Assembly (NCBI GenBank): GCA_947172415.1
Contig: OX359195.1
Coordinates: 1,798,001-1,862,000 of the forward strand
Reading direction: 5' to 3'
From: Chondrosia reniformis
Taxonomy: Eukaryota; Porifera; Demospongiae; Chondrillida; Chondrillidae
DNA length: 64,000 nucleotides
In this document: piece by piece, positions 24,866 through 64,000 of the stretch
How positions within the stretch are numbered: the stretch's first letter is position 1
Layout: each line of letters begins with the position of its first letter
Notes under the pieces: generated by a model
Seen by the model: only the letters and a program-made list of their open reading frames with translations
The model's database searches: none
Told to the model about the DNA's origin: nothing
Program-made: the position numbers and the translations under genes

Positions 24866-25578
24866 TATGTAATACTATTATCTGTAAAATTGTAACCACA
24901 GGCAGCTATACGTATACGTATATACATATTGTGTTAGTGTATATACAGTCCCCTACTTTTCATCTATATACATCCAGTATATAACACATATTATACACAA
25001 GATTAAGTTTATTCTTAAATATTTCAAGATTCTTCTTATGTCAATAGTTAGACCTAATGGTCTGTAACTCAATATTCATATTCCCTTCCCTTTCCTGTTG
25101 AGGCTATATACTGAGCTAGATTCCTTGTTCTAAAGTACAACACTTTCAAATCCCCATCTTGTTTTAACATTTACCCCAAAACACCTGAACTATTTTGGGC
25201 TTAAACTATGGACATCCCATAATCACTGGATCTTGAATCTTGTGCCATAGACCACCAGCACCCCCATGCTTGATTTTTCCCTGCTGAATTCTTCACATAA
25301 TATTCATAACATTAACGAATAATCTAAAATTGCTATATACATCACTGCCATCTACTTAAACATATGGTGTATTGCTGATGAAGGCCTCCGGGCTGAAACT
25401 TCAATTTCTGTTAATACTCTAATTTTTAAGTATGCCTCCGTTCTCCCCAAAATTGGGGAAATTCAAATATAACACATTAGGCTGAATGCTAAAAACCAAA
25501 AACTGCTCAATACGTAGGTTTTAAAATATAAATTAAGTTAGCAAATTTCCTCTAACTAAACTTAAAAAAACAGTGTAG
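24866..25578. other. Intergenic region downstream of DNAJC25
   Basis: AT-rich DNA with no gene. It includes a hammerhead-like motif at 25369-25417 (see its own entry) and presumably the DNAJC25 3' UTR. Confidence 0.45.
25369..25417 (+). ncRNA. Hammerhead-ribozyme-like motif
   Basis: Core CTGATGA is followed by one extra A, then a 4-bp stem with a UCCG tetraloop (GGCC-TCCG-GGCT, last pair G-U), then GAAAC. Outer bases GTATT and AATAC can pair after a GTT cleavage-type triplet. The extra base between CTGATGA and the stem departs from the hammerhead consensus, so activity is doubtful. Confidence 0.4.
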
Positions 25579-28500
25579 TTACATTTCATCATCAATGAAT
25601 GTCATTCTCCCTGGCTTGTTATTCTTCATGTATCTCTTGTATTGTTTGTACTTGTTACTCTCTGCCAGTTTAGCTTTTTCTATCTCCTTCTGTTCCTCCA
25701 AATACACCTAACACATGCAAACCAGCATTAAATTAGCACTTATGAAGTGTAGCAAAAATGGAATGTTATATAGCAGCTGTTTCCTTAACAAATGAAGACC
25801 AAAGTATATATAAACCCATGGCAACACTTGCTTACGTACCTACTGGTACCATTTTTAACACGTGTACATTCTGTGCTCTCAAAGTATGGCAACAGACACA
25901 TATACTGAGTATTGTAATGCCTGGAGCAGGCATAACGAGGGTTAAATATAAGTTGATGAACAAATACACTGAAAGAGGTTCATTGGAGAAAAATTAAATA
26001 TTTAAATAGCTGTTCAGCTTTATTATTATGTGCATACAAATTAAGATGGTATAACTTTACATATACTCCATTGCTGGGGCAACCCCCTGTGTTTAAATTT
26101 CGTAACCGCGATATAACAGGATTTAAGAAGCTATATACTGCATCGGCCTCTTAAATCCTGTTATATCCCTGCCCAAATATGGTAAACTAAGACACTTCTT
26201 CTTGGAGGGTGGACAATTCTCCTTACATTTAGGACAGTTGGAGTAGTCAGGGCAAGAGCATTCTATGAAGTCGTCAGCATTTAAGCAAAACAACCAGACG
26301 CTAGCAGAGCCATCCTGAAAGTCCCACCAAAATAACGATAACAAGCGACGGAGTATATATCACTCATTCCATGGCGTTTCGGTGTATATGGATTTTATAC
26401 ACCTCAGCGCTGTGGTATAACTAATACATAACTCATACTTAAACGAAACAAATATACAATGATCATGATTTACACAAATTATGAAAGAATTAACAAACAT
26501 TTGTGTTAGCAGTATAATGTACATGCCACTTGACTTACAGTGAGGTTAGCCTTAATCCATAACTGTTTTGTCAACAGAGTTTCTCTATTCTTCTCTGGAA
26601 GCATCTATCAACATAGAAATATTCAAATAATTATCTGTCCCACAAATTATCAGATAATTAAAACTTGCAAACTTCATTTTTTCACATTGATTGTAAAAAT
26701 ACCAAGCTATAACTAATGAAAGATAGCAAGCACAATCCTTTAGAAATAGCTAATTGAACACACAGTACAGATACAATGAAATGAGAGTAAAATCCATAAA
26801 ACTGAAAAAGTATGTAATCTCATCTTAAATCAAAATACCCATATAAGAACTTTAACAGTTCAAGCATTCTTATTCATGACATTTCTAATACATTCACAAT
26901 CTAAGACAACTGTAAATCCCTTTATTTAAGTAGAACCAAAAGTTAGCAAAACTGGATTTTACCCCTACATAGCGGAATTTAATGTTAGCGACTTACAAAA
27001 TACGTACATGGAAGTTTTGTTAGTTAATTACAGTAATAAATAATTACAGTAGTACTCTATTTAGTAGTAATACTATATTTAGCGAACTCTAATTTTAGCG
27101 TTAAATGTCAAATCGCTAATATAACTAAATTTAAAAGCACACTAATAATAAGGGATTTACAGTATATATTTCAGAACATTTCGGTCTGTAGACCATCCTC
27201 AGCTGAAAATAACACTATACGTCTAACATAAACAAACTGATAGTGTAGCACACATTCACGCTTATTGTAACAGCGTAGCAATGAATCTATATTAAAACAT
27301 TCACAGTCTAACCTGCCACTGCGTCTCTGAGAGCTTCAGACTCTTCCTTGTCAAGTAGTCTATTTCTTCAGGGCCATATGGTTCTTTATTTATCGTGAAC
27401 TTCCAAGTCCAAATGACCCACCATTTTACATAGCAAAACAAGTAGTAAGGGCTAGACGTGAGAGACCGGATAATTAGGCAGTCTATATATGTACTATATA
27501 TCACGTTACCAGGGCAACCGGGTGATATCTGGGGTGTTACAAACCTTATATTTCACACTTGAACTAGTGATAAATGTTATATCACCAGTGGGCCTACTCA
27601 TGTTTACTTATCATCACCTTTACAATTGATTCAAGTCATACATGATCAAGTGTGAAGCTTAGTGATATCCGCCCTCGACCTTCGGTCTCTGGCAGATATC
27701 ACTTATGCATCACACTCGAGTGTGGTATAACTACTACATATATACTAGGACTTTATGAATGAATGGATCAGTGCAAGTTAATTACCTAAATAAGATCTGA
27801 AATACCAGTACATCTAACACTTTAGGTTGTCTGTATCCACCTCTAAATAAGGAAAAGGTAGTTTTTGGAATTTCAAGTGCAGTTCTCATTTAATATTATA
27901 CCTACTCTATTTGGAGGTTTTCTTCTAAAACTTTTATTAAAATCTTCTCCTCCTCTGCCTTAATTTCCTCCTATCACAAAAATAACAAGTCTCATTATAT
28001 ACACGTGATGCAGTCGAAATGTCTGAAGCTCTTGACTGTACTTGTTATACCAAAATAAATACCCTGGCCTTAGCAATACTCAATTCAAACCATTTACTGA
28101 ATGCAGTCATATCATGTACGTATGATAGATAAGTTTATTGGAGCTACGTATCTGCAATGAAAATCGAGCTAGATTGAATGCTTCAACCCGTAGGTCTTCA
28201 TCAGCAATAAGCTTGATTTTCACTGCAGATAGCTCCAATTAACTTATCTATCATAATGAATGTAACTAAAATTACTCCCTATCATGTACGTATGTACGTA
28301 TGCATGCAAAAGTTAAGCATACTTTTGTCATTTTATGTTTCTTTCTCAATTCCTGTGGGCTCTTTAGCAAGCCTTGAGACTTGGCTATCTCTTTAGCCTA
28401 CAATGTACCATACAGGGAGACAATAATCTGAAAAGTCCTAACAATTGTATACGTATGTATGCAAGTGTGCACTACCGATCCAAGGTAGTCGGTACATGCA

Positions 28501-31500
28501 ACCATAAATGGAGCAATAGTGACTGTAGTTACGTATACAGAATTGCAACATCATCCCCCAACAGGATCAGCAAAAGTAATGCATATGTACAAGGCTTGAC
28601 CAGAATACAAGAATGAGGTTCCAAAAGTTCAAGAAGGGGGAGGGGAGGGGGTGGCAATTCAAACAAGGGGAACAAATTCCCCTCACATGCACCCCTGGCT
28701 TATATACGTAGGCTTCAATGTAACTGAATATGCATATAGCTATACCCGATCTTTTGGATGGAACACCTTTCCACATTTCCACCAAAATAAATACCAAAAC
28801 ATGTACAGTGGACCCTCGCCTATCCGGACCTCGAGTATTCCACCTTAGATTTTGTTTCTAATTAACGTCCATCGTTTAATAGCGTGTACGAGTTTACGAC
28901 AATGGCTAGCTGTAGCGATGTCTCCTTGAAAAGGAAGCGTTGTTGTAGTACTTTAAAGACCAAAATAACTTATTTGAACTAACCACTCGACGAAATCAAC
29001 CAAAATACTACTTGTTCCTCGCTTGAAAATCTCGATCGAGGCGGCGTTTCTTTTGCTTCACATATCCAGTCGTTTCAGTTATCCGGACATGGTCCGGTCC
29101 CGTTGGGTCCGGACAAGCGAGGGTCCACTGTATTTGTAGATGTTCAACAAATCAAAAGATATTCCATTCAAAAGATAACTTTGACACAATCAGACGGAAT
29201 CCTTATTCTATTAACTATACCTGATTTCTGTACTTTGATTGAGCGAAGGCATACCGGATTGCAGAGTTGTATGACGTCCTCCAACTGACATACTGGACCA
29301 CTGATATGAGGAGAATGGTCCCCAAAATGACCACTCTGACATCAACCTTCGGAGCCACCCTGCGTCTGTAATACTTGTAGTAGTGCAACAAGTACTCATC
29401 TACAGATAATAACAATAGTTAACTAGTAACTGACCATGCATAAAAGAGAAACGGGGAGACTACAGTCAACTAGTAATTGTCTATAAAGAGAAACGAGGAG
29501 ACTACAGTCAACTAGTTATTGTCTATAAAAGAGAAACGGGGAGACTACAGTCAACTAGTAATTGTCTATAAAAGAGAAACGGGGAGACTACAGTCAACTA
29601 GTAATTGTCTATAAAGAGAAACGGGGAGACTACAGTCAACTAGTAATTGTCTATAAAGAGAAACGGGGAGACTACAGTCAACTAGTAATTGTCTATAAAA
29701 GAGAAACGGGGAGACTACAGTCAACTAGTAATTGTCTATAAAAGAGAAACGGGGAGACTACAGTCAACTAGTAATTGTCTATAAAAGAGAAACAGGGAGA
29801 CTACAGTCAACTAGTAATTGTCTATAAAAGAGAAACGGGGAGACTACAGTCAACTAGTAATTGTCTATAAAAGAGAAACGGGGAGACTACAGTCAACTAG
29901 TAATTGTCTATAAAGAGAAACGGGGAGACTACAGTCAGTGATTTAATGAAGATCACCATCACAGTCAAAATGGTTGACACTTAAAGATTTATAGATCTCT
30001 AGAGGCTTAAAAGTTTGAAAAATGGTCCATACATATCAATGTCAATGTCAAAACATTTACATACTGTACATTTGAAAAATGGTCCACCTCGAGATATATG
30101 TATGTAGTTAGTGTACATACATATGTTGGAATGAATGCATTTTAATCAAAGTTGACAAGTCTTCATTTGGGCCATCTCATAAATAACATCACAACACGTT
30201 ATACTTTCTTATCCAACCAATCAATTGTTTATATTTGAGGTGTAACTCATTAGTGTCATTCAGCTGATGAAGGTCTATGAACCAAAATGTCCTGAAATAA
30301 TTTAGTAACTGTTACGAGCTACTATAGAAGGCTCATCATCTAGTTTGTCAAATTTGAGGTTGTAGGTGTAATCTTTATAGAGCACCACTATACAGCATTC
30401 AGCAGCAATACCCTGATACGTAGGTAATGGCTGCTTACCAGGATTGTCCAGTAGGTAATCGTAATCTGCTCTACTTTCCTCATCTTTAAGTGTCTAATGG
30501 CACCAGAATACAGATATACTGTACATACGTACATATGTATATATTATGTATGTAACATAGTGGCATGTGATACCATAGTACTCATGCATTGTCATATATA
30601 CACTCATGCATTGTCATATATACACTCATACATTGTGGTTGACGATATTTGTAAATGATTGTGGTTTGATTGATTATTACTGGTATTCTGTGCAGGTACA
30701 CTTACTTCATAAGCTGTAGCAATCAGCTGAAACTTCTCTTCGGCATCCTCACCCTTGCATATATGATAAGGAATATAGGTAACTGAAATATAACAGGTTC
30801 ACATACATACATAATATGCATATAGTCAAGATTTGAACAACATACATACATACACATAAATTGTCAAAGGTATTGGTAATTTGGTTTTCTTCAAGGGAAG
30901 GAGGATAACTATTCGCAAGAGGGGACAAATGCCCCCCTCCCCCCAAGTGCAGTTTGCTACTTGGTCTAAAATAGTAAATTTATATGTATGCACTGTACAG
31001 GTAATAGCATAAATTATTTAGTCTCATTCTCACTTTGTATTTGTCAGGATGATATTGACGAGCCTTCCTCCTATATGCTCTTGCTATCTCAGCCTATATA
31101 CAAAGACATATCTAGATGTACCCCTATCGGATACACACACCCACATCAGCTACACACTCCCACATCAGCTACACACCCACATCAGCTACACACTCCCACA
31201 TCAGCCACACTCCCACATCAGTCACACTCCCACATCAGCTACACACTCCCACAGCTACACACACTCCCACATCAGCCACACTCCCACATCAGCTACACAC
31301 CCACATCAGCTACACACCCACATCAGCTACACACTCCCACAGCTACACACACTCCCACATCAGCCACACTCCCACATCAGCTACACACCCACATCAGCTA
31401 CACACCCACATCAGCTACACACTCCCACATCAGCTACACACTCCTACATCAGCTACACACTCCCACATCAGCCACACTCCCACATCAGCTACACACCCAC

Positions 31501-33940
31501 ATCAGCTACACACTCCCACATCAGCCACACTCCCACATCAGCTACACTCCCACATCAGCTACACACTCCCACATCAGCTACACACTCTCACATCAGCCAC
31601 ACAACAATACATTCATACTTCAGTTAGCCCTAATTTGCAAAAGTGTATTGATGGAGTGAATTACACAGTAAAGGTGGAAAACCAGGTGCAACAGGAATGA
31701 ATGTGACCATGGAGTAATAGGAAGCCATAATAGGGGGACAGAAGGAAACCACTAAGGTGCCATGAATACCTACACTAATTTTACTCTGAAAGTCTAAAAT
31801 ATACATACAAACTATACGCTCAAACATAATACTCATTTATGTGTGTTTTAGTATGGGTACTGTACACAAACTGACTATATACACAAATGGACAAACATTG
31901 CTATAAATGGGAAGTCGGTGTTAAAGTTCAGTTTGACTGGAAAACAATCATTGTTTAATGCTTCACACAAGACACAACACTGCATGATTGTCATGTGATT
32001 TATCAATCTCAGGCTAACCCAAGAGGCTGTCTCTCCTTTGAGATAAGGACATGCACAAATACACTAATGTCTTAAAGGTGTCTGTAATATTTTAGTTCTT
32101 TTAATCAGCTGAAGAAGGTCTACGGACTGAAACATCCTGAAATATTTGATTGTTTCGATCGGCTACAGAAAGCTCACTAATCTCACTTGTCATAGACCAA
32201 ACATAGCAATGAATCGGTATTCTATCACACAAATGACTGTAATGACATCTATGAGATACACCGTTTACAATGGAGATTCACCGTATGCAATGGAGATACA
32301 CCGTATACAATGGAGATACACCGTATACAATGGAGATACACCGTATACAATGGAGATACACCATATGCAATGGAGATACACCATATGCAATGGAGATACA
32401 CCGTATACAATGGAGATACACCATATACAATGCAGCACACAGAACTGTGTACTTTGATCTACATTAAAACATGGAGTAAGCCTATGTTTGTGGTCTACAT
32501 GTAGGGATTGCATGCACGTTTAGTGTGTGATGAAAATCAAGACACCACTTGTGCCTGAAGCTGGTGTTCTCATTCTTAAGGATGTGTCCTGAATCCATAC
32601 ACCTCAGGCTAAAGGACATTGGTAATCTGAACCATGATTTATGCTTATAGCTAGTCTCTTTTTAATTAATGTAAATTTTCTACGATTTTCTTTTAAAGTT
32701 GAACAGCCTTCCAGTTAAGTAGTCACATGAGGTGAATGGACAGTACAACAATGACATATGATGACTCAACATTCTAAAGTTTCAGCAGTGCATGCTATAC
32801 ATTTAACTAGGCTCGAGGTCTCCATTGGTAAAGTTCCCAATAATGAAAACCACACATAATATTAGCACACTGATGATGCATCTCTAAATGCCATTCATTG
32901 GGTGGTTAAGTCAGCAGACACACACAAACTGAAAGTCAGTAAAGGTGTTTGATGTAGAGAACCTACTCAACCATTGACTGACTATTACAGTCATTGCCTA
33001 CCACAATAGCAGTTGCACTTTACCTTCTCTGTGTCCCGAGTGACTTCCAGAACTGTAGCAATATAACAATTAAAGACATGTTATAATCTTAAAATTCTAT
33101 CTACATCGATCTTATCGACAAGAGAGTAAAAAGAGTCTATTTATAGAAGCAATTGGCTGGCCCGGAATGGTCATAGACAACATGAGTAAAGTGATAGGGA
33201 GTAATTTTAGTTGCATTCATAAGTTTATTGGAGCTATCTGCAACAAAAATCAAGCTAGATTGAACGTTTCGACCAAATAAGAAAATGAGGTAGTTCCTGT
33301 TTCTTGCAATCCTGCCTGTGATATTCCTCAATTTGTAGATGGTTGAAATTGTCGCTTGCTCTGAGCTTTTGATGAAGTGATAGGGAGTAATTTTAGTTGC
33401 ATTTATTATGATACATAAGTTTATTGGAGCTATATTGCTGACGAAGACCTACGAATCAAAACATTCAATCTAGCTCAATTTTTGTTGCAGATAGCTCCAT
33501 CTAGCTTATCTATCATAACATGAGTAATCCAAAACATTATTTTCCTACATAGAACATCCATACTACAGTAAAAGGTCTATAGAGAACTAAAACTAGTGAG
33601 AACTTTAGATGAGGATACAAGATCTTTTCTTTATACTTCTGCTCCACTGGGACAGATAGCTGCTTATAGCATAATGAACACTTCTGCGCTGTAAATATCT
33701 CCAAGCCTTCAGACCACTTATAAACAATATTGTATAACAAACACGTTCTTCAATATAAATTCAAAAGATAACTATCTGTTATATATAGCTTAGAAATTTG
33801 GATTTAAAACAGTGAAAGTTAATTTACGTACCATCATAACAGTTTTCCCTTCCGCAGTATAGTCCATCTATTAGAGACACGGTAGTGTGGATATTGAGAG
33901 AGAGGACACTTAGAGTAAGGAAAAGTGCTGCAGGCCCCAT
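25579..33940 (-). CDS. DNAJC25: DnaJ homolog subfamily C member 25 (ER/membrane J-domain protein)
   Basis: J-domain co-chaperone that stimulates Hsp70 ATPase, membrane-anchored. Twelve exons (minus, 5' to 3'): 33832-33940, 33024-33052, 31034-31093, 30706-30753, 30439-30493, 29221-29399, 28323-28397, 27906-27970, 27786-27842, 27313-27451, 26539-26604, 25579-25707, all in phase, 336 aa (human about 360). Residues 1-25 form a signal peptide (MGPAALFLTLSVLSL). The J domain follows, with YCGRENCYDVLEV and the HPD motif at about 61-63, then DEYLLHYYKYYRRRVAPKVD, a transmembrane segment (VILGTILLISVVQYVSW), a second hydrophobic segment in exon 10 (PYYLFCYVKWWVIW) and the conserved C-terminus GRMTFIDD. 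Start is the first ATG before the signal peptide. It diverges from APH-1 across 473 bp. Introns carry three minisatellites. Confidence 0.95.
26062..26400. repeat. Foldback repeat with GTTGCTGGGGCAAC and a Cys-rich open frame
   Basis: Lies in DNAJC25 intron 11. It contains GTTGCTGGGGCAAC and the inverted pair GATATAACAGGATTTAAGA / CTTAAATCCTGTTATATC. A minus-strand open frame (26344-26123) encodes a Cys/Pro-rich peptide (CSCPDYSNCPKCKENCPP) of unknown meaning, probably chance or a transposon remnant. Confidence 0.45.
26909..27163. mobile_element. MITE with ACTGTAAATCCC ends
   Basis: Perfect inverted termini are ACTGTAAATCCC and GGGATTTACAGT. The interior repeats TTAGCG-like motifs. A nearly identical copy is at 54053-54305 and an internally collapsed one at about 38447-38499. 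Confidence 0.85.
27168..27210 (-). ncRNA. Hammerhead-ribozyme-like motif
   Basis: Core CTGAGGA (position 7 is free in the hammerhead consensus), one extra T, stem GGTC-TACA-GACC, then GAAAT and GTT. Flanks TTTCAG and CTGAAA form a perfect 6-bp stem I starting directly at the core. Stem III is essentially missing. It abuts the MITE ending at 27163. Confidence 0.4.
28138..28238 (-). repeat. Foldback with internal hammerhead-like core
   Basis: Outer arms TTGGAGCTA...TCTGCAATGAAAATC and their inverse form a stem of about 35 bp. Inside, the minus strand reads CTGATGA, A, GACC-TACG-GGTT, GAAGC. The homologous copy at 33424-33499 has the same outer stem. Confidence 0.6.
28806..29130 (+). mobile_element. 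Tigger-derived MITE in DNAJC25 intron
   Basis: Termini CAGTGGACCCTCGCC and inverse CAGTGGACCCTCGCTTGTCC are flanked by TA. An ATG at 28902 opens a short basic peptide (MASCSDVSLKRKRCCSTLKT) resembling the start of Tigger transposases. Same family as 6255-6596. Confidence 0.87.
29425..29936. repeat. Minisatellite, about 43-45-bp unit, about 11 copies
   Basis: Unit contains AGAAACGGGGAGACTACAGT and CAACTAGTAATTGTCTATAA. Copies alternate between one and two forms of a short A run (AAAGAG versus AAAAGAG). Located in DNAJC25 intron 5, starting about 25 bp upstream of the exon 6 acceptor. Confidence 0.95.
30258..30298 (+). ncRNA. Degenerate hammerhead-like motif
   Basis: ATTCAG, CTGATGA, AGGTCTATGAACC, then AAAATGTC and CTGAAAT. 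Outer TTCAG/CTGAA pair directly next to the core. GAAA has become AAAA, which should abolish activity. Confidence 0.35.
31130..31612. repeat. Minisatellite of CCCACATCAGCTACACACT units
   Basis: About 25-30 imperfect copies of 13-19-bp units. Three frames stay open for up to 220 codons, but all are low-complexity HisThrSer repeats. It lies in DNAJC25 intron 2, ending about 35 bp from the exon 3 acceptor, so the pre-mRNA there is GT-rich. Confidence 0.93.
32104..32143 (+). ncRNA. Hammerhead-ribozyme-like motif
   Basis: Core CTGAAGA, one extra A, stem GGTC-TACG-GACT, then GAAAC and ATC, followed by CTGAAAT. Stem I is short (CAG/CTG). Close relative of the motifs at 27168 and 30258. Confidence 0.38.
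32250..32440. repeat. Minisatellite, 20-bp unit ATGGAGATACACCGTATACA, about 9 copies
   Basis: Units vary at one or two positions (CCGTATAC, CCATATGC). Repeat frames are open on both strands. Located in DNAJC25 intron 2. Confidence 0.95.
33424..33499 (+). repeat. Foldback with internal hammerhead-like core
   Basis: Outer arms TTGGAGCTAT and ATAGCTCCA enclose CTGACGA, AGACCTACGAATC, AAAAC. A half copy of the same repeat precedes it at about 33220-33275. The core is mutated relative to 28138-28238. Confidence 0.5.
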
Positions 33941-34413: not shown

Positions 34414-37400
34414 ATGCCTGCCTTGGCTACTATAGGTTATGCCCTGATAGCGTACAGCCCAATAACGGCTTTATTTTTTGGAACAGTGGCGTCGTATCCA
34501 CACGAAGTTATCCTACTTATCTTGGGGTAAGTACGTATGGAGACATATTTCCCGATTTTACTGTATGATACTTCTTAGTGTTACCACACTATTGACCGCC
34601 TTTAGTCCTTCCATTTTGCATGTAAATGTACCCAATAGTTCCATACTATGTGTCTGATATGAATTTAAACCTTCTCGATTCAATCCCTCGACGTTTTATA
34701 TTGTAAAGTACTTAGCAATTTTCATACTTGGCTGGAATTATAGTATGTCATTGGTATCTTTAAAGTGTGTACTCTGGAATGTTTTATAACTTCAAAGAAT
34801 TTACATTATTTTTGTTCATTTATCCTCATCGTTTGAAGAGCTGGAAATGTATCTACTTTAAATAAGCCAGTGTTACTGATCTGCACAATTTTAATGCAGT
34901 CGAAATACTTGCCAATCTTGTGGATAGTACAGTTTATCAGAGTATTGCAATACCACTTTTCAGTACTCCTGCCCTCTCATAGAAATCTAAAGCTTTATTA
35001 AAGTATCAATTATTATTGCACATACATGTATGCATGTAATTGACTTACCACTCCCCCCACCCCCAAACCCTTATCAACTCTTGCTATGTTTAATATAAAA
35101 CAGTTGTGGTTTTGTCTTATTCATCTTGGAGATGGTTCATTTATTAGTCTTTTGAACATCTAGAGACACAGTTGGTTCTTGTAGGATTTGGATGTTTCAC
35201 TTCAGTGACTGATGGTGACTGACAATAGGGGCTGAAGAAGACCCCCCAGGGTTGAAACGTCCAAATCCTAAAGGAGCCAACTGTGTCTCTAGATGTTCAA
35301 AAGACTAAACCTTCTCAAATATAAGTTTGGCGCAGTTCGAAGGAATTTCTATCATCACTTATTCTATCATCGTTTATGTTTGTAGTTCTTTCTTTTATTT
35401 GGTGGCCTTTCTGTTGACTGCAATTATTTGGGTGATCATACCACCTCTATGGAGAAATCCAGTCATAGCAGTCATTTTTGGTGCTCCGTTGCAAGAGTTT
35501 TTTCGATTCCTCTACTATCGGACCCTCAAGTATGTTGATAACAGTGATTTCCATCAGTAGTGTTTTATATATGTACGTATCTCTATTTTGGACATGTATA
35601 TATTAATATCTACTTCACCTTGCTGTCATTCTTGATTTTTATTCATTTCTTGATTTGGTTCAAATATCAGTAAATATAGACAAAAGGAGCTTCTACATGA
35701 CCACTCACCCATGCATCCAACCATTCATCTATCTTGCCACCCACCCATGCATCCAACCATTCATCTATCTTGCCACCCACCCATGCATCCAACCATCCAT
35801 CTATCTTGCCACCCACCCATGCATCCAACCATCCATCTATCTCGCCACCCACCCATGCATCCAACCATCCATCTATCTCGCCACCCACCCATGCATCCAA
35901 CCATCCATCTATCTCGCCACCCACCCATGCATCCAACCATCCATCTATCTCGCCACCCACCCATGCATCCAACCATCCATCTATCTCGCCACCCACCCAT
36001 GCATCCAACCATCCATCTATCTCGCCACCCACCCATGCATCCAACCATCCATCTATCTTGCCACCCACCCATGCATCCAACCATCCATCTATCTCGCCAC
36101 TCACCCATGCATCCAACCATCCATCTATCTCGCCACTCACCCATGCATCCAACCATCCATCTATCTCGCCACCCACCCATGCATCCAACCATCCATCTAT
36201 CTCGCCACTCACCCATGCATCCAACCATCCATCTATCTCGCCACTCACCCATGCATCCAACCATCCATCTATCTCGCCACCCACCCATGCATCCAACCAT
36301 CCATCTATCTCGCCACCCACCCATGCATCCAACCATCCATCTATCTTGCCACCCACCCATGCATCCAACCATCCATCTATCTCGCCACTCACCCATGCAT
36401 CCAACCATCCATCTATCTCGCCACCCACCCATGCATCCAACCATCCATCTATCTCGCCACTCACCCATGCATCCAACCATCCATCTATCTCGCCACTCAC
36501 CCATGCATCCAACCATCCATCTATCTCGCCACCCACCCATGCATCCAACCATCCATCTATCTTGCCACCCACCCATGCATCCAACCATCCATCTATCTCG
36601 CCACCCACCCATGCATCCAGCCATCCATCTATCTCGCCACTCACCCATGCATCCAACCAACCATCTATATTCTGCTATTCTGCTAGCTATTCTATGTTCT
36701 GAGACAACCTCTTAAAATCATTTTCCTTTTATCCTGTTAGAAGAGTTGATCACCTACTGCAAGTTGTTAGTGGAGATTCTACATACAAGAGAAAGCATAA
36801 ACAAGCCTATGGTAAGTACATATAAACCTATTGCCTCTATCGTGTAAATAGATGTATCTGCTTAGAATACACTAATAAAGTTTTCGCTTACTTATATATG
36901 TATTTAGAATATAATTCAATTCTTACTATTGAGCTCTCTTTCATGATCTTGCACTAGTGCCATATGACTTCTCTGCCTTATTTTGCATTTACTGTATATG
37001 TCTCAGATTAGTTTAAGAATATAAATACACAAGTAATAATATATGATATTTAATATAGATGTACTTATAGGACATACGTATATGTAAAAGTGACATAATT
37101 GATTGAATATTGTATGAGACTTTTGACTTACAAAAATTCAATACATTTATAATTTGTGCTGATTCTCTTAATTGTACCGTAGTTAGTGGTTCTACTGCTC
37201 CAAATGTGTCTAAACTTCCATTTTCTAGTTGGCGGAATGGGTTTTGGGATCATGGCTGGAGCACTGTCAGGGATCAATATGATAATACTATCTGCTTCCT
37301 CTGGTACGGCTGGACTAGCTATCAATGAGCAGAGTCCAATCAGTGACAGTTTTTTCATTACAACAAGTTAGTACATGTTTGTGTAGCTAGTGACACAATT

Positions 37401-39086: not shown

Positions 39087-40133
39087 TAGAAACTCTGTAA
39101 ATATCCAGTACATGTTGACTGACTTTGCTGAATTCTTATATAAATACCATAATTAATATAATGTATAATGTACACTGTTTTTTTTCATTCCCTGATGATG
39201 ATCCCTGTTTAGGCATCGAAACGTTGGAGTAATAAATTGTAATAAATTGTTCAGGCTAGAGACAAATGATTAACTGCATGGATAAAATAATGTATATTGC
39301 AGCTATTACTTGTGTTGTTTGGCATGCCGTAAAACAGGAAATTTAACAGCATTTAAAGTTGACGGTTTGGATTAAAAAACTAGATGGCTTGTTGTCTGCA
39401 TACCAGTTTTACTGAATGAGAAGGGGTCACTGATATACTTTCATTATACATAACAATGAGGCACAATATTTTGTATTGCTCCTTATTGTGTATAATCCGG
39501 AGACTAAATAGAGTTCTAGACTAAAATTAACCATACATAAGCAGTAATATTTAATTACCTAATACAGACAGATGGTGAGGCTTGATCAACTGGTTCGAAT
39601 GTACGTTAACATGTGTAATCCTAGAAATTGATTTTTTGAGAAGATTGTCACATGTTCCACTGAAGGATGTTACTTATAAAGCCTGGAAATCAAGCAAGCA
39701 CTTTTAAAATTTTCAAAGGTTTTAGTTGTTTGTAGATTAAACTCCTAATAAATAATTACATATCATACACAAACAAGCGGTGTTACATTTCAAGAAACGT
39801 TGAGGAACATTTGACTCCATGTGTTTAAACATTACAGTATAGAATGCACTGTTGTATGTATTATGAATTTTATCAGGTACAGGGTCGACTTTTGAATGGA
39901 GATTAATTCCTATCTCTATTAGTACTTTCCTTATTTATTGGGGGAGTGGCTCTTGATCATACATTATTGAGTGAGTCAGTTCTGTTTACATTCTCATTCC
40001 CATTTCCAATTCAGTATCTAGATGATATACACATGTCGCTCCTTGTGGTGTTATTGTTATTTGGTGTCGTCCATCGATAGTCGGTGTCGACAGTCGATCT
40101 TCGTTTTTGTCCACTTTGGCGCTCCATATTATG
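39087..40133. other. Intergenic region between APH-1 and the foldback element
   Basis: Contains the APH-1 3' UTR with two AATAAA sites near 39230-39250 and a hammerhead-like motif at 39186-39228 (core CTGATGA, extra T, GATCC/GG-ATC stem, GAAACGTT; flanks ATTCC/GGAGT). No gene is recognisable. Confidence 0.5.
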
Positions 40134-45986: not shown

Positions 45987-46497
45987 ATATAGCCCTCACA
46001 AGATATATGACATGCAAATCCGTATAAGAAATCTGAATGTGCTAATTCTAGATCTTTTTGGCTGTGCTGATGATTTTATACCAAATATCGTATGACTATC
46101 GCGGTATACATCAATGCTTGGCTAACCTAATTATAATTACTTGTGTATAATAATGTGTAGTAATTGTTTGGCGTGATTTCTGGCATTTTTGTACCTAATA
46201 TATATTTACATATAGGTTTATCACACCTAGACAGCTGCACATTAAAAGGACAGCCATGTTTTTCTGGATAGGCATTTTCATATGAAGTCATGATAATGGT
46301 GGAAACGGTCTCGTTCTCTCCCTCCCCATAGCTGCTGTAAATATATTATTGTCAGCACATATGCATTGAAAAGGGAGGTTTATTTTGGACATATGGATCA
46401 CTACTAGAGAGTATGTATTCTCTGACATACATAGAACACAAACCAGTGATATAGCTATATACATTTGCAAGTGATCATATAGTCATTACATAAAAAA
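45987..46497. other. Spacer between sulfotransferase copies A and B
   Basis: This spacer is itself duplicated: much of it reappears at 47700-48187 between B and C, and the downstream part resembles 44560-44798. That shows the unit of tandem duplication includes flanking DNA. Confidence 0.7.
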
Positions 46498-47699: not shown

Positions 47700-48187
47700 A
47701 TATAGCCCTCACAAGATATATGACATGCAAATCCGTATAAGAAATCTGAATGTGCTAATTCTAGATCTTTTTGGCTGTGCTGATGATTTTATACCAAATA
47801 TCGTATGACTATCGGTATATATATCAATGCTTGGCTAACCTATTACTTGTGTATAATAATGTGTAGTAATTGTTTGGCGTGATTTCTGGCATTTTTGTAC
47901 CTAATATATTTACATATACGTAGGTTTATCACACCTAGACAGCTGTACATTAAAAGGACAGCCATGTCTTTCTGGATAGGCATTTTCATATGAAGTCATA
48001 ATAATGGTGGAAACAGTCTCGTTCTCTCCCTCCCCATGCATAGCTGCTGTAAATATATATATTATTGTCAGCACATATGCATTGAAAAGGGAGGTTTATT
48101 CTGGACATATGGATCACTACTAGAGAGTATGTATTCTCTGATATACATAGAACACAAACCAGTGATATATAGTCATTACATAAAAAA

Positions 48188-49891: not shown

Positions 49892-52800
49892 TGTCAGTGT
49901 CAGGTGTTTGACCCCTGGAAGCATTCTCCTGTCCTGACATCTGTCCACTGTCTTCACTATCTGAATTAACCTTCCTGTGAAAAAAAGAATATCCACCTAG
50001 TATGTGAAAACTCACAAGATTTAAATCTGATAAACATGATATTTATCAGCTATAGGCTTTTTTACAGAATTGGCACATCATGTAAGGAAAATGGTGTATT
50101 AGATTTTTCATGTTTTTTGTGACAATCCACATAGTCAAACACAATTTGTGTCGTGTTTTGTAAATATAATTAATAATGATAGACTGTATTTGAAATGGTT
50201 TATTGAAATGGTCTTTTCAGTGACTGAACAAGACCCCCAGGGTCAAAATGTCCGAATCCTAAAAGAATCAACTTTGTATCTAGACGTTCAAAAGACTATA
50301 TTAAATGAACCATCTCGATAGTACAATATCCTTTCTTTATGATTCATATAAAACCTAAGATGCCTATATCACGCTTATACACTTATAAGGCTCAAATGGT
50401 AATTGTTATATTATTCAATTATTGAAACAATGTTTTATTTTTTGTCGTCCAACTCATAAAAAGATATTACAGATCTCATCACACTAAAGGATTCTATAGA
50501 CTAATTAACACACCTTTTCTTGCTGGCAAATTCTTCATTTTCACTATCACTTTCCTCAGAGGAAGAAGATGAAGAGGACGAGTCACTAGAGGAATCAGAT
50601 GGAATTCCGGTTCCTTCATCCAGATCTACTGAGTCAGCAATCTCTGCTATTTCGGGTCGCTCTTTCTGCATTAAAAAAACCCTTCATATATGCATACATG
50701 TTTGATACGATGAAAAGGGGTGTTAATTGCACTTGGCCTGTGCAAAGGCTAAGATGATAAGCAAGAAATAATCACTGGAAGTATTATGCCAACCAGCCAA
50801 GTGACCGAAGTCTAATCTTGGCTGGGGGACCGAAGTCCTATTAAATTGGCAACCAGTGATCGCCTCCCAGTCATCCAGGATGGAAAAATTCATCAAAAAC
50901 CACTGACAGCTGTTTCACCCTCATTTGGGTTCATCAGTGTGGTATACTTTATGGAGGCTGCAGTCTAGGTGAGACTGAACACTCACAATGAAAAAATGTT
51001 TGATACAAAACGAAACTGTACAAACAATTGACAACAAGTAGCATTCAATTTGGCTATGAGTGAAACCTCCATTAGTTTAGCCACCCTGAGATAGGACTAA
51101 AACATATTCAAATATGTACATATAGACTATATACCAGAAGAATACCACGACGTAATCCTTCCTGTTTATACATACCGTAAATGGGGAAGTAAATGTGGGG
51201 TTTAATAATTGCATTTTTGCACATTTTTGAGGCTTTAAAAGTAATTGCAGTTTAAAAATTGTGGAACTACAATTACAATGGTATGCAGTTGTGGTATAAA
51301 TAAGATTCAGCATATATAAACAATACAGCAGTGGCTCGGAAACACTTCAAGGAGCTGAATCTTAGTGAAAGTACTGTTTGCTAGGCTATCTACTTGGTTG
51401 TGATCGCACTACTCCATTCTATACAGAGTACTTGCCAACCTTGGCACAATCATCTGCCATAAAAATTGATTTACTGGTATTTTCGCAAGCACGTATGTTT
51501 GGCAGTGGATGTACGTAGGTGTGTGCATGGCTTTACGTAAAACCATGGTAACTACCGTATAATAAATTGTAGTTTACTTTTTGGTGAATGCAGAGAGAAC
51601 TCGCAATCTTGCAATTATTTGACCCTTGCAATAAATTCCCCATTTACGGTATTACATAAGAAAGAAAACCTCAACATACATGGAAAATAAACCACATACA
51701 ACATTATATTTTTCAACATGCATGACAGACAAATATGTTTACTTTTAGCTTCCGATACCAAATTCTAGACAGTTTGGATCTTCCTCTAATAAAGAATAAA
51801 CACAACCTATCACAGACACACATTATAAAGAGGGAAAACATGAAAGAAGCAATTGCAGGTGGCTAGAGCCACTAGTACTCTGCCACTGGGCTACAATTGT
51901 TACAGCAATTCTCCCTTCACATATTTCCCCTTCTAATACTAAATACAAAGTATAGTGGAACTGGCAAACACGAACATGCTTTACAGAATTATCATTTTAT
52001 ATGAACAAAACTTGGAAACAGAGTCCCTATAATACAAAAGCTACCTATGAATAACACAAACAATATTTGGTGACAGATTATTACTTAAACTATCAGTTAG
52101 ACCTATTTCAAATTAAATACTTTCATGAAGACAACGATTACACATAATGGCTACTTTTAACCATATATGGAGGTGATAAGCAAAAATAATCACTGGAAAG
52201 TATTACGCCAAACCAGCCAAGTGACCGAAGCCTAATTCTTGGCTGGGGGGGCTGAAGTCCTATTAAATTCATTGTAAGTTTAATCAATTAAGTTCATTTG
52301 CAATTAGACAGGTGCAGTATCATGGATAAAGTATAAAGATCATTTATGCATACCACATATGTCCAAAGCTCTCTTCAGGTTTAGTTCCCCTATAGGCTCT
52401 TTTACAGAATAGGCATATAGCATGTAGAAAACCGGTATCTTAGTTTTTTTCATGTACATACGTAAGTGAAGGGCTTTGTACAAGCAACATCAGTGATGGA
52501 AACCTTACCTTACGGTCTTGTGCCAAACTACGGGAAAGTTTGTAGGACTTGCAAAGTTTTGAGTTATGGCAACACTATTTTTAACATTCAAAACAACATG
52601 CCACCACCCACCAGGAACAAACACAGTCTCTCCAGCCTCTTGCATAATTTCCAACTGTATCAAAATACAAACTATTAAGCTATGAAAAAAAAAACCAGAA
52701 AAATCTTGACTATATTGTCATTGGAAGTTAGAACTTTGGATGAGAATACAAGAGTTTTCTCCTCCTTCTCTTCATGCATGTATATGTAAATATAAATGTA

Positions 52801-56836: not shown

Positions 56837-56922
<86 letters not shown>

Positions 56923-59135: not shown

Positions 59136-59138
59136 TTT
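59128..59138 (-). promoter_or_regulatory. YY1-like AAAATGGCGGA over the JMJD6 start codon
   Basis: The start codon lies inside AAAATGGCGGA, which matches the animal YY1 site AAnATGGCGGC seen just downstream of many housekeeping TSSs. Binding is inferred. Confidence 0.4.
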
Positions 59139-59734
59139 CTTCAGCGATCCATTGGCTCGCAGTCCGCGAGTTGCATCATAGATATACGATACGATTATCG
59201 TAAATGGTTGTATGCATCAAGAAAAATTGTCTGGGCCCCTCTTCAAAGTAGCCATATGGGTAAATGGGATTTCCTAGCTAAAAGATTGAAAGAAGCTACT
59301 TTCTACTGCCGAAGCGCTGTGAAAAGTCCCAATTTTAAAATGTGATATATAGAAAATTGAAGAGATAGAAGATCTATCTACCGATAGAAGATATAGATAG
59401 AATCTCTATACTAATGAAATATTTATTATAAACGTTTTATGCTATCATTATCCATTTCTAGTGACCACCAAACCTTAATTAAATTTTAACACTTTACTTT
59501 ATTAATTTCTATAACTATTTTCTATTGGCATGCATTTTAGCTAATTGTATTGGTGGAGGTTTCAGCTGCAGGGTGGTGTGACGTTCGGTGTGACATGTTG
59601 GTATAGCACTGGCGAAGGCCAACTCCGAGTCAGCTATAACTAGGATGTGGAATGGCCCCTTGCAAGTGCTAAGTATTAATTGGTTTGCAGCAGGAATGAG
59701 TGAAATTTTAACCATTCATGCACGGATAACTAAA
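59139..59734. other. Divergent spacer between JMJD6 and sulfotransferase copy D
   Basis: About 600 bp shared upstream region. A frame continues upstream of copy D to 59645, but comparison with copy E supports the ATG at 59735. Confidence 0.5.
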
Positions 59735-60934
59735 ATGTATTCTAAAAGGTTTAGTCTGTTGGTCCTCATTTTTATTGGCTTTATACTACTCTTTTCTGCA
59801 AACCTTTTCAGTGGAAAACGTTCAATTGAGACCAAAACTTTTCCAGTTCAATTGAAGAAGGATCACTCGCTAAACACTGTTCCAGTTCAACTGAAGAAGG
59901 ATCACTCGCTAAACACTGTTCCAGTTCAACCGAAGAAGGATCACTCACTAAACACTCCAGTTCAACTGAAGAAGGATCACTCGCTAAACACTCCTGTTCA
60001 ACGGAATAAGGATCACTCGCTAAACACTAGTCTTCCAGTTCAACTGCAGAAGGATCGCTCGCTAAACACTCATAATGACATATTTAATTCGGTCAAGAAA
60101 TTGTTACTCTTTGTCGGGTGGCCACGAAGTTGTCACAGTTTTGTGGGAAGCATACTGGATGGTCATCCTCATATACTTGTAGCTGATGAATACTTTCTGA
60201 TGACCAAACTCCGTAAAGGCCGATTAGCAATTCAAAGAGATGTTATATTCAAAGCACTATACAATAGTTCAACTAGTTCAATCAAGAACGCTAGGAGTAT
60301 GAGAGCAAGAACAGAACGTATGAAAGGTTACTCTCTATTATTTGAAGACTTGATGCAAGGTCAATTTGAGGACCACATCGATATTATTGGAGACAAAGCT
60401 GGTGCCCATGTGTCAATGCTCCTAAATGACAAGACTTACAATATTAGTAAGACATTTGGGATACTAAAAAAGCAGTTGAGGGTTGACATCTATGTGATAA
60501 GAGTAGTACGAAATCCCTATGATAATATAGCAACAGACTCCGTATACAAACATGGTTTAAAAGAAAAACTTAAAGAAATGAGAAGCTTAGAAAATACATC
60601 ATTGCTTCAAGTTCCAAAAACAGCATTAAGTAGATCTGCAATGGAGTATTTTCGGCTTTATTTTGCAAGTGAAAAGGTGAAGGCTGCAGCAGATAAGACA
60701 ATTGATGTACATTGTAGTGATCTCATAGACAATCCAAGAGAAGAAATATCAAAACTCTGTGAATTTTTGGAGGTTCAATGTTCAGAGGATTACATCAGTA
60801 AATGTGCATCACATGCATTCACTGAAGAATCTCATACAAGTAAACTAATCAATTGGCCACCAGAGGTGAAGGAATCAATTCAACATAAACTGGATTCCAT
60901 TTCAGTATTCAAAGCTTACAATTACAAGCTTTAA
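59735..60934 (+). CDS. Type II membrane sulfotransferase-like protein, copy D, with repeat stem
   Basis: Presumed Golgi sulfotransferase, acceptor unknown. Single exon, 399 aa from the ATG at 59735 (chosen because MYSKRFSLLVLIFIGF gives a short basic end plus signal anchor, as in copy E). Stem residues about 37-112 are six tandem copies of a 12-residue unit, PVQLKKDHSLNT, basic and Thr/Ser containing. The catalytic domain then has the PAPS motifs LLLFVGWPRSCHSFVGS and RVVRNPYDNIA, and the C-terminal HCSDLIDNPREEI. It is about half identical to copies A-C. AATAAA at 60973 follows the stop by about 40 nt. It converges with copy E. Confidence 0.86.
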   Translation: MYSKRFSLLVLIFIGFILLFSANLFSGKRSIETKTFPVQLKKDHSLNTVPVQLKKDHSLNTVPVQPKKDHSLNTPVQLKKDHSLNTPVQRNKDHSLNTSLPVQLQKDRSLNTHNDIFNSVKKLLLFVGWPRSCHSFVGSILDGHPHILVADEYFLMTKLRKGRLAIQRDVIFKALYNSSTSSIKNARSMRARTERMKGYSLLFEDLMQGQFEDHIDIIGDKAGAHVSMLLNDKTYNISKTFGILKKQLRVDIYVIRVVRNPYDNIATDSVYKHGLKEKLKEMRSLENTSLLQVPKTALSRSAMEYFRLYFASEKVKAAADKTIDVHCSDLIDNPREEISKLCEFLEVQCSEDYISKCASHAFTEESHTSKLINWPPEVKESIQHKLDSISVFKAYNYKL

Positions 60935-62299
60935 GCTTTTGAACCTTTAATTGTTTTCCATGCATGACTTTCAATAAAAGTAGCTAAAATATATATCCAT
61001 ATGCATGCACCATGCACCATTAATAAAGAGAAAGTAGGTACGTAAATATATATGTACATATTGCACATGTATGATGTATAATATTTTATATATATATTGC
61101 ACCCTGATGTAGACGGCAGCTGCAGAAAATATATGTATTTAGATATGCATGAATATAATAGATTGTAGCTTATGTATACAAAGCATGCATATATATGTAT
61201 ATATGTCTTTGTTATGATAAGTAGGGATACAGATCTTATATATACATTTAAAAGGATTGATACATGCAGGAAATTGGTATTATAATTACATCATCAACCA
61301 TACTATGCATGTAAAAACCTTTCAATTATTATGTATATACTTAAACCACATGCTCATGATCATGCATATATATATACGTATATATATTTGTTTTTAATGT
61401 GCCTTAGCAATTAAAGACTATATACATGTACAAACTAAATCTAGCTTGCCATTAATCATAAAGCACGCATGCAGTTTCAATTCTAATGCCACATGTACAT
61501 TTATTGGGCATTGCAAGCTTGAATGATCTATATAGTGTAAATTGATCCACAATCTAAGTGGAAGAGAAATGTGCAATGAATGGACTACAGGATTGGATGT
61601 GAATATGAAATTTGATTTTAAAATGGCAGTCGAGTCCTGTTATATTTAAATTGATATTAATATTATTAGAAACTCTGATTTTCCTTGTTAAATGTAAGGC
61701 ATATAAAAAGATTAATTATAAAGATGTCAACCAGTTATATATGGTTATGGGGCACAGAACTGCACTTGAGCATGTAATATATAGTCATTCACTTGCAAGG
61801 CTACCATGCATGCTCATGCACAGCCTGGAATTAAAATGTTTTGTCACCTTTGTAATTGTTTACATGTGGTGTTTGTAATCTAATACATTTTGACATGTAC
61901 AGCTCATGAGAGTGCATGGGCCTTCACTGGTGCTACCAGGCCACACTATCCAGCCACCATCAACCCAAATGTGGAGAAGAGCTGGGTTAAAAAGGTTCAA
62001 TTTGGTGACTACATGTGCATGCATGGTGCACGGTCACTAATTATAAATGGAAAATGCATGTACTTCAGCCAGCCTACCAAAATGCCCAATGAAAAGGACA
62101 AGTCCTTAAAGGGTTTCTTAAAATCGTCTTCCACAATAAAGGTGTAGAGAAAATAGGCCTCTCAGGTATCTTAAACCAAAAGTTAGTGTTAGAAACTGTC
62201 CCACCCTTTATGTGTATATAGTGTATTAAATATACCCAACCAATAGGACCTCAAATCTTAAACTTTTCACAAGCATTGCATGAAATTTACAGAAAACAA
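60935..62299. other. Region between the convergent copies D and E
   Basis: Contains the copy D 3' UTR (AATAAA at 60973-60978), TA-rich tracts, and an exon-like open frame at 61903-62147. The 3' ends of D and E share sequence into this region. Confidence 0.55.
61903..62147 (+). other. Possible orphan terminal exon, unknown protein
   Basis: A good acceptor (TTGACATGTACAG) precedes an 81-codon open stretch: AHESAWAFTGATRPHYPATI, then KKVQFGDYMCMHGARSLIIN and a Lys/Ser-rich end, stop at 62145. Composition is protein-like. I do not recognise the family, and no upstream partner exon is evident. It could be a displaced exon, a retrocopy fragment or chance. Confidence 0.28.
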
Positions 62300-63547
62300 T
62301 TACAGATTCAAAAGCTTGTAATTGTAAGCTTTGAATACTGAAATGGAATCCAGTTTATTTTGAATTGATTTCTTCACCTCTGATGGCCAATTGATTAGTT
62401 TACTTGTATGAGATTCTTCAGTGAATACATGTGATGCACATTTACTGATGTAATCCTCTGAACATTGAACCTCCAAAAATTCACAGAGTTTTGTTATTTC
62501 TTCTCTTGGATTGTCTATGAGATCACTACAATGTATATCAGTTGTCTTATCTGCTGCAGCCTTCACCTTTTCACTCGCAAAATAAAGACGAAAATACCCC
62601 ATTGCAGATCCACTTAATGCTGTTTTTGGAACTTGAAGCAATGATTTATTTCTTGTTCTTTTCATTTCTTTAAGTACTTTTACTAAACCACAGTGGTATA
62701 TGGAATCAGTTGCTATATTGTCATAGGGATTTCGTACTACTCTTATCACATAGATGTCAACCCTCAACTGCTTTTTTAGTATCCTAAATGTCTTACTAAT
62801 ATTGTAAGTCTTGTCATTTAGGAGCATTGACACGTGGGCACCAGCTTTGTCTCCAATAATATCGATGTGGTCCTCAAATTGACCTTGCATCAAGTCTTCA
62901 AATAAAAGAGAGTAACCTTTCATATGTTCTGTTCTTGCTCTCATACTCCTAGCGTTCTTGATTGAACGAGTTGAACTATTGTATAGTGCTTTGAATATAA
63001 CATCTCTTTGAATTGCTAATCGGCCTGTACGGAGTTTGGTCATCAGAAAGTATTCATCAGCTACAAGTATATGAGGATGACCATCCAGTATGCTTCCCAC
63101 AAAACTGTGACAACTTCGTGGCCACCCGACAAAGAGTAACAATTTCTTGACCGAATTAAATATGTCATTATGAGTGTTTAGCGAGCGATCCTTCTGCAGT
63201 TGAACTGGAGTAGTGTTTATCGAGTGATCCTTCTTCAGTTGAACTGGAGTAGTGTTTAGTGAGTGATCCTTCTTCGGTTGAACTGGAATAGTGTTCAATG
63301 TCTCTGATAGATCCTGAACTGGAATACTAGTATTTAGCGAGTGATCCTTCTTCGGTTGAACTGGAATAGTGTTCAATGTCTCTGATAGATCCTGAACTGG
63401 AATACTAGTATTTAGCGAATGATCCTTCTTCAGAATACTTCTGGTCAATATTGAACGCTCTCCGATGAATAGATCCGCAGATAATAATAATAGTAGTAGT
63501 ATAATAATGAGGGCCAACAGATTAAACCTTATGGTTTTAAGCATCAC
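62300..63547 (-). CDS. Type II membrane sulfotransferase-like protein, copy E, with repeat stem
   Basis: Single exon, 415 aa. Signal anchor MLKTIRFNLLALIIILLLLL, then a stem of the same 12-residue units as copy D (PVQPKKDHSLNT), here interleaved with a second unit (PVQDLSETLNT) as a 26-residue compound repeat present twice. The catalytic domain matches D almost residue for residue (GWPRSCHSFVGSILDGHPH, RVVRNPYDNIA, HCSDLIDNPREEI). The C-terminus extends to KLLNL where D ends KL. D and E form an inverted duplicate pair. Presumed Golgi enzyme with unknown acceptor. Confidence 0.86.
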   Translation of the reverse strand: MMLKTIRFNLLALIIILLLLLLSADLFIGERSILTRSILKKDHSLNTSIPVQDLSETLNTIPVQPKKDHSLNTSIPVQDLSETLNTIPVQPKKDHSLNTTPVQLKKDHSINTTPVQLQKDRSLNTHNDIFNSVKKLLLFVGWPRSCHSFVGSILDGHPHILVADEYFLMTKLRTGRLAIQRDVIFKALYNSSTRSIKNARSMRARTEHMKGYSLLFEDLMQGQFEDHIDIIGDKAGAHVSMLLNDKTYNISKTFRILKKQLRVDIYVIRVVRNPYDNIATDSIYHCGLVKVLKEMKRTRNKSLLQVPKTALSGSAMGYFRLYFASEKVKAAADKTTDIHCSDLIDNPREEITKLCEFLEVQCSEDYISKCASHVFTEESHTSKLINWPSEVKKSIQNKLDSISVFKAYNYKLLNL

Positions 63548-64000
63548 TGCACAAAAGGTTCTTGTTATGTGCAGAAGGGCGCGGCTTGAAGAGCATTTCT
63601 AAAACATCAGTGCACGTGATGTAATTATAAGATAGCAGATTCAAGTGTACGTATGTAACAGAGCAACTGAACTACACAGATGAATCCCCAATTAGGGCGA
63701 AACATCCACATTGAATGTAGGGAATTACTGTATAAGGGTGCAACTTAGTCTGGCTTGCTATCTCCTACTTCCTGGCCCGCCGACGATAGCAAGCAGACAA
63801 GGTATCGACTTAAATGCCGCATTTCACTCGTTAGCTAACACCACATTCGATTCATGATTGTTATAACACTCATTTTAGCAATTGACCACTAATTATTACT
63901 GATAGTTGTATATGAAACGTTTTAAAGTTTTATTCATAATACAAGTGACATGCAAGATGCAAGGTTAATATAATGAATACAGTAACGCAACAACATCATG
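63548..64000. other. Upstream region of copy E to window end
   Basis: Contains a hammerhead-like motif at about 63671-63720 (CAGATGA in place of CTGATGA, CCC/GGG stem, GAAAC; outer CTACA/TGTAG pair). No gene is seen before the end of the window. Confidence 0.45.

Follow-up and report, generated by a model that had tools for sequence, protein, structure and literature searches.

In the accounts given in PMC7761336 and PMC6155905, minimal type I hammerhead ribozymes without helix III occur in Penelope-like elements (PLEs) as thousands of dispersed copies in animal genomes, may be active as dimers and have no known role; the primary papers on the hammerheads of PLEs and Terminons are Cervera and de la Pena 2014 and Lunse, Weinberg and Breaker 2017. 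PAc, a PLE of Anolis described in PMC11167929, encodes a reverse transcriptase (RT) with a C-terminal GIY-YIG domain, bears a hammerhead in its pseudo-long terminal repeat (pseudo-LTR, pLTR), and cuts and extends both strands, with reverse transcription starting inside the RNA and giving rise to a tail. More than 6000 type I motifs, 1508 of them canonical, are reported from a coral (PMC7229834), and the transcription start of a plant retrozyme could be mapped only after its ribozyme had been killed, the 5' region being otherwise cleaved off (PMC12029980). We describe a dispersed family of hammerhead motifs in a 64,000-nt stretch of the genome of the sponge Chondrosia reniformis, referred to throughout as the window. 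Very probably the sites in it derive from minimal type I hammerheads of the pLTRs of sponge PLEs and are their genomic copies, a number of which have decayed; to this we add a model placing the start of transcription within the ribozyme; the computed basis of this reading consists of fold and pairing, an extra A in the core, position just after GIY-YIG frames, and decay.

The window corresponds to bases 1,798,001-1,862,000 of contig C7 (8,459,200 bases), and genome-wide counts refer to the C. reniformis assembly of 117,379,552 bases in 15 contigs, which include C1 (10,409,357 bases). An initial annotation of the window had listed ten sites as a dispersed hammerhead-like family, and the reality of such a family is borne out: the exact words CTGANGA-N8..20-GAAAC occur five times against 0.31 expected, a number reached by none of 100 shuffles, and a descriptor combining the core words with stem I, stem II and an NUH triplet (score of at least 5) finds five sites, all with one extra base, against none in the reversed window sequence. 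The genome-wide collection of motif matches that the annotation had offered as its check also lies well above background, a loose pattern giving 3226 + 3207 matches against 523 + 515 for the reversed pattern (about sixfold), an excess that includes an abundant repeat family, D, as well. The first 100 loose-pattern places listed all lie within the first 3 Mb of C1; of these, 31 have a stem of at least 3 bp with exactly one extra base on its 5' side, 23 have the D arrangement with an unpaired A on both sides, and 32 have no stem of that length; among the distinct inserts at these places, 28 of 69 have a stem of at least 4 bp, compared with a mean of 4.2 and a maximum of 12 in 1000 shuffles.

Contrary to the annotation, the ten sites do not constitute one family. 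They divide into minimal hammerheads of three subfamilies (A, A2 and B), one decayed member of a canonical family (C), an unclassified site at 39192 and a non-member at 63671; sites are named here by strand and by the position of C3, from which upstream and downstream positions are also counted. CTGANGA is present at nine of the ten; 63671 has CAGATGA in its place, and the site given as 35142 was misplaced, that position belonging to the other arm of a palindrome (arms about 35144-35199 and 35253-35308) that holds the motif at 35232. Likewise GAAAC is exact at five of the listed sites and altered at 27202(-) (GAAAT), 28204(-) (GAAGC), 30264(+) (AAAAT) and 33438(+) (AAAAC). Two covariance models, R1 made from 28 genomic A/A2 copies (five from the window) and R2 from 22 B copies (none from the window), match the window 8 and 7 times respectively at E<=1. 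Neither matches at 63671, and R2 found a copy at 50216(+) that was absent from the list. A weak match to R2 (19.0 bits, E 0.02) also lies at 59117-59152 on the minus strand.

The consensus sequences are AUUG-CUGAUGA-A-GACC-NNNN-GGUY-GAAACRUY/C for A, UCAG-CUGANGA-A-GGUC-NNNN-GACY-GAAACRUY/CUGA for A2 and GUCA-CUGARGA-A-GACCC-NNN-GGGUY-GAAACGUY/UGAY for B, the slash marking the predicted cleavage site. Each has the element order of a type I hammerhead, namely an open stem I, CUGANGA, a hairpin stem II of 4-5 bp, GAAA, an NUH triplet (here RUH) and the 3' strand of stem I, and since stem III is reduced as it is in PLEs, the suggestion of a distinct structured RNA that shares the core is not supported. 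The annotation's alternative, decayed ribozymes, is true of several window copies. Stem I pairs in most window copies, as had been stated; at 35232 it is unpaired and at 50937(-) it opens with a mismatch. The minimum-energy fold of 32109(+) contains stems I and II, with the predicted cleavage site after position 32136 (a fold row for A2 at L073, begun at a wrong offset, is disregarded), and 39192(+) has an extra U, a stem II with 5 of 6 pairs, a GUU triplet and a stem I of 5 bp.

Two features set A, A2 and B apart from a strict hammerhead. Stem II does not follow A9 directly, as it does in family C, there being one extra base that is A in 27 of 28 A/A2 and all 22 B copies aligned, and, by eye, in 98/100 A, 59/59 A2 and 100/100 B words listed. 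The annotation had remarked that this base lies outside the hammerhead consensus; it is confirmed in all three subfamilies and is unusual, yet it has a precedent in A10 of the CChMVd(+) hammerhead, which also breaks the rule of no extra base and is classed as a hammerhead all the same. As described in PMC3705267, A10 moderately lowers the rate of that ribozyme and a U in its place raises it; PMC12531169 describes a hammerhead core with an extra adenine as less active in vitro. The other departure is the lack of a closed-loop stem III: GAAA and the cleavage site are separated by no more than ACGU or what its decay has left. ACGU is present in 14/28 A/A2 and 15/22 B copies and the remainder mostly have ACAU or AUGU, the products expected when its CpG decays; being self-complementary, unable to close a hairpin but able to pair between two copies, it leads us to expect cleavage from dimers. 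The A motif has three CpG sites, where most departures are to TG or CA; the CpG observed/expected ratio of the window is 0.53, and the G-U pair of a stem II such as GACC...GGUU fits the same decay. A, A2 and B are a real family of minimal type I hammerheads, and their RNAs are probably self-cutting.

Pairing in stem II is maintained across the genome. The series of stem II variants quoted in the annotation was correctly read from the window copies, and its claim of covariation is upheld by the paired words GACC/GGTY (689) and GGTC/GACY (59), for which the mispaired swaps number 1 and 0 and the reversed controls 0; a strict B pattern has 570 matches and none when reversed. Between A and A2, stem II has two pairs exchanged with compensation, and in the alignment of the 28 A/A2 copies there are 23 two-sided changes, compared with 7.9 in shuffles and no more than 9 in slid structures, while the covariation score and the percentage paired exceed those of all 500 shuffles.

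For each of A, A2 and B, one copy or more lies in the terminal repeat of a PLE, the links for A and A2 being one locus each. A genomic GIY-YIG search gave at least 38 matches. At locus L030 a 750-aa frame with RVT_1 and GIY-YIG domains in Penelope-like layout is followed by a B hammerhead whose C3 lies 33 nt 3' of the stop codon, with a TATA word overlapping the stop, and L029 repeats this arrangement with 615-nt tandem copies. The A hammerhead of L059 lies about 230 nt downstream of a GIY-YIG match in a frame containing a stop, and the A2 hammerhead of L071 about 90 nt past the stop of a GIY-YIG frame. No motif was seen in several other GIY-YIG loci, such as L031, L052 and L056, and the window hammerheads are solo copies. 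L031 (C2:5827000-5831500) represents a second kind of PLE, whose 742-aa frame has its GIY-YIG domain close to the N-terminus and is preceded by tandem repeats of about 250 bp; such GIY-YIG-first elements were considered as hosts and rejected, the motif being absent near L031, L067 and L068.

The ends of the copies were traced by three DNA searches in which 40 candidates each were scored. For A, 43 of 50 rows besides the query were tallied, leaving out 7 partial matches in inverted orientation whose starts lie at query position 75 or later: the right end falls at +77 in 21/43 and the left end at -7 in 21/43, where the query itself begins. The right end of short B copies falls at +95 to +97 in 30/39 matches, and full-length B matches (39 rows starting at query position 1, query excluded) end at +100 in 15/39, with 9/39 extending to +184. 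The opposite end of the PLE at L030 bears an inverted copy of 75 nt of the tail, the inner edge of which is no more than one base away from where cleavage is predicted, and all 40 short B matches are palindromic with the hammerhead near the tip, the query itself being a palindrome. The simplest reading of these palindromes, by analogy with the cutting and extension of both strands by PAc, is that two cDNAs begun at the tail on both target strands may have been joined head to head. Priming of cDNA by a snapback of stem I was also considered; it fits 28204(-), but the joints lie elsewhere in other copies, within stem II in both L034 and L086 and near +31 in L063, and two cDNAs joined with small overlaps are therefore the simpler account.

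In the promoter-bearing copies of A, A2 and B, a TATA-like word starts 34-38 nt before C3. In A it is TATTTATA at L061-L064 and TATTTAAA at L059; in A2 it is found in the window copy W30264 and at L074; in B it is of the CTATAAA type at -34 to -38, some B copies lacking it. Since the usual distance from a TATA box to the transcription start is about 30 nt, the start would fall at about -5 to -9. At the predicted start, B has TCAGTC (-7 to -2), which we take to resemble an initiator motif. Independently of this, the sequence that A copies share mostly ends in the same place. Among 25 A copies (25 of 30 rows, row W 33495, with a wrong coordinate, and four A2 rows being left out), upstream sharing with the best partner extends over 6-9 nt in 15, at least 24 nt in 7, and 3, 11 and 19 nt in the remaining 3. 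In a larger set of 55 A copies (42 at the next 40 places of the A-word list and 13 earlier ones), 40 have no more than 14 nt in common with their best partner, and the majority-base frequency from -1 to -6 is 0.91, 0.98, 0.71, 0.75, 0.84 and 0.60, falling to 0.44 at -7 and to 0.29-0.51 further upstream except for 0.58 at -36. TATA-like words fall in the -41 to -33 bin in 9 of 54 copies, compared with 1-4 in six other bins. Together, the TATA box and the edge near -7 at which sequence sharing falls off point to a start of transcription inside stem I, and this coincidence of start site and hammerhead, which we infer from sequence, is the new part of our account.

Our tentative proposal, which we put at somewhat short of an even chance, is that the hammerhead may be a 5'-terminal domain of the PLE RNA, that dimeric cleavage of the A10 type sheds a capped leader, and that hundreds of short insertions are the fossil record of the process. 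The pLTR promoter, with its TATA box 34-38 nt upstream, would start transcription within the 5' strand of stem I, some 5-9 nt ahead of CUGANGA, and the ribozyme would then form the first 35 nt or so of the RNA. With ACGU pairing between two copies as stem III, it could cut from dimers, trimming the capped leader and dividing read-through tandem transcripts into units. Short dispersed copies would be reverse transcripts begun at the tail, which lies at +77 in A and at about +100 in B, and extended to the 5' end of the RNA, and palindromic copies two such transcripts joined head to head. That a hammerhead can trim a leader is a notion supported by the cleavage of the 5' region in a plant retrozyme (PMC12029980).

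A number of results count against parts of this account, the start-site model included. In the A/A2 alignment five pairs changed on both sides, a number reached by 39/500 shuffles, and 59/500 shuffles reach the observed number of further pair types, so that both statistics are weak; in the alignment of 22 B copies two-sided changes are found in two stem I pairs, as many as in 19/500 shuffles, and in no pair of stem II. The stem II difference between A and A2 may represent a single event, stem I of family A is partly poor, with its outer pair unpaired in 13/28 cells, ACGU has been lost from about half of the A/A2 copies, and none of the A, A2 and B sources tested passes Rfam Hammerhead_1 at the gathering cut-off. 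A TCA word near the start is absent from 27/54 copies, and the copies used to place the start were chosen by core pattern and partly share lineages. The PAc hammerhead, in the account of PMC11167929, cleaves only in the presence of protein, no reads ended at its cut site, and its mutants still insert in vitro. This last observation, like the broken cores or stems of several window copies and the prevalence of TG and CA at the CpG sites of A, is what would be expected if the hammerheads were inactive, unselected passengers, the motif persisting by descent from recent PLE masters and stem II pairing recording ancient selection. We hold this to be rather unlikely, since three subfamilies with different stems I and II all keep pairing, the extra A and an NUH triplet, and mispaired stem II words are nearly absent beside the 689 and 59 paired ones.

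That the edge near -7 marks the place where reverse transcription stops, or an end made by processing, for instance on the cap-distal side of a folded stem I, we regard as doubtful, though a real contender: the edge falls where stem I ends, and the inverted arms of many copies are joined at varied positions, whereas a start of transcription is favoured by the TATA-like word at the expected distance in three subfamilies and by TCAGTC at the predicted start in B. Short palindromic copies could also be foldback elements resembling miniature inverted-repeat transposable elements (MITEs), moved by a transposase and carrying the hammerhead incidentally; the opposite-strand match at the same place in 40/40 short B matches agrees with this, although the query was itself a palindrome, but the ends of short B copies lie close to those of full-length PLEs, and full-length L030 bears the same inverted end, which makes such an origin very improbable. 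Chance matching of a short degenerate motif would account for some 500 loose-pattern matches per strand, going by the reversed control, and perhaps for the stemless third or so of listed places. As an explanation of the family it is next to negligible, given the five window sites found by exact words and by descriptor against 0.31 and 0, and family patterns with no reversed-control matches; the stem II word counts exclude it for A and A2, an exclusion that does not extend to 63671 and 39192.

Table 1. Hammerhead copies and a related element remnant in the window (positions of the window; exact words, descriptor, R1 and R2 as in the text; "in model" and "outside model" refer to the copies from which R1 was made)
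Feature	Position	Strand	Particulars
Subfamily A hammerhead	25367..25416	+	C3 25375; TT replaces RTT after GAAAC; exact words, descriptor, R1 50.3 bits (outside model)
Subfamily A2 hammerhead	27160..27210	-	C3 27202; extra U, GAAAT, stem I 6 bp; descriptor, R1 48.7 bits (in model)
Subfamily A hammerhead at tip of long inverted repeat	28162..28212	-	C3 28204; descriptor, R1 57.8 bits (in model)
Decayed A2 copy keeping upstream TATA-like word	30256..30306	+	C3 30264; R1 52.2 bits (in model)
A2 hammerhead, best preserved in window	32101..32151	+	C3 32109; exact words, descriptor, R1 58.6 bits (in model)
Decayed A copy	33430..33480	+	C3 33438; AAAAC, stem II partly broken; R1 52.7 bits (in model)
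Decayed B copy inside palindrome	35224..35272	+	C3 35232; stem I unpaired; exact words, R2 35.2 bits
Unclassified hammerhead-like site	39184..39239	+	C3 39192; exact words, descriptor; R1 21.1 bits, R2 26.4 bits
Subfamily B copy	50216..50266	+	R2 37.9 bits, E 7.5e-8
Decayed copy of canonical retrozyme-like family C	50882..50956	-	C3 50937; no extra base; exact words
Remnant of GIY-YIG-first Penelope-like frame	62056..62296	+	tblastn with L031 frame: two pieces, about 70% identity, E 4e-21

In family C the extra base before stem II is missing and stem III is a palindrome, ACAGCUGU; it has 201 strict matches genome-wide and a tandem spacing of about 352-363 bp for some of the 100 matches listed. 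It is the family that Rfam recognises: Hammerhead_1 (RF00163) passes its gathering cut-off at 4 of 20 source loci, all of family C (L017, L022, L026 and L043), and has no match at that cut-off in the window. The window copy 50937(-) is solo and decayed, with 84% identity over 175 bp to L026, and in the Rfam scan of the window it gave a match to HH9 alone (18.5 bits, E 9.2). At a relaxed threshold the scan returned 41 weak matches, mostly of microRNA models to palindromes or simple repeats, which were set aside. An inverted repeat with 29-bp arms at 41029-41128 has a sub-cut-off match to a microRNA precursor on both strands owing to its hairpin shape. Matches to the A word in viral contigs (L069 and L070) were likewise rejected, no arrangement of NUH triplet and stem I being seen there by eye.

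The repeat family D, CTGATGA-AGGGTGGAATTCCCA-GAAACAGCTG(T), is represented by loci L047-L051, and its 33-nt word has 313 exact copies genome-wide. D and C have GAAACAGCTGT in common, and at L051 the flanks GGGTCA and TGGCC could pair as a candidate stem I; the common sequence extends past stem I, and by eye one frame looks partly open. D was considered as a fifth hammerhead family and is not counted as support, its stem II having an unpaired A-A at the closing position; it may be a hammerhead relative, a coding repeat or a coincidence.

Elsewhere in the window, three minus-strand frames of 395, 228 and 429 aa at 44799-49477, with a common word at 44828, 46527 and 48217, are probably genes duplicated in tandem at intervals of about 1.7 kb. 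Two inverted frames, of 429 aa at 59645-60934 (+) and of 415 aa at 62300-63547 (-), overlap tandem arrays of near-identical 39-bp units on opposite strands and are probably an inverted gene pair. A tandem array of a 36-bp unit (35701-36668; about 27 copies, 97% matches) holds overlapping frames open on the two strands, and it is very likely that these frames merely reflect the repetition.

If the proposal were correct, the PLE hammerhead would be tied to the choice between capped mRNA and uncapped template RNA, and the combination of TATA box, start edge in stem I, ribozyme and tail would give it a concrete and testable role. The elements also document PLE hammerheads and retrozyme-like arrays in a sponge, and the many animal hammerheads with an additional base in the core form a natural collection that escapes recognition by Rfam. 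Going by titles and opening lines, a literature search found no report on sponge hammerheads, and another none on transcription start together with PLEs and hammerheads.

In kind these motifs are already known, being PLE hammerheads. With those described in PMC7761336 and PMC6155905 they have in common the type I order, a reduced or missing helix III, probable action as dimers, location in pseudo-LTRs, tandem copies and dispersal; they may differ from them by the extra base between A9 and stem II nearly throughout, and the coincidence with a promoter start is a feature absent from the PLE hammerhead descriptions in these two sources. The likeness to CChMVd(+), as set out in PMC3705267, lies in a single unpaired A directly after A9; that hammerhead belongs to a plant viroid, whereas the sponge motifs are genomic, much smaller and nearly without stem III. 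The non-LTR retrozymes of metazoans described in PMC7229834 resemble family C in their canonical type I hammerhead and, for some, tandem repeats of about 352-363 bp, and differ from A, A2 and B, which are minimal and placed after PLE frames. PAc, in the description of PMC11167929, resembles the sponge elements in combining an RT and C-terminal GIY-YIG domain with a pLTR hammerhead, an internal start of reverse transcription and a tail; its frame begins at stem II, whereas the sponge motif lies about 33 nt (B) or more past the stop of the preceding frame.

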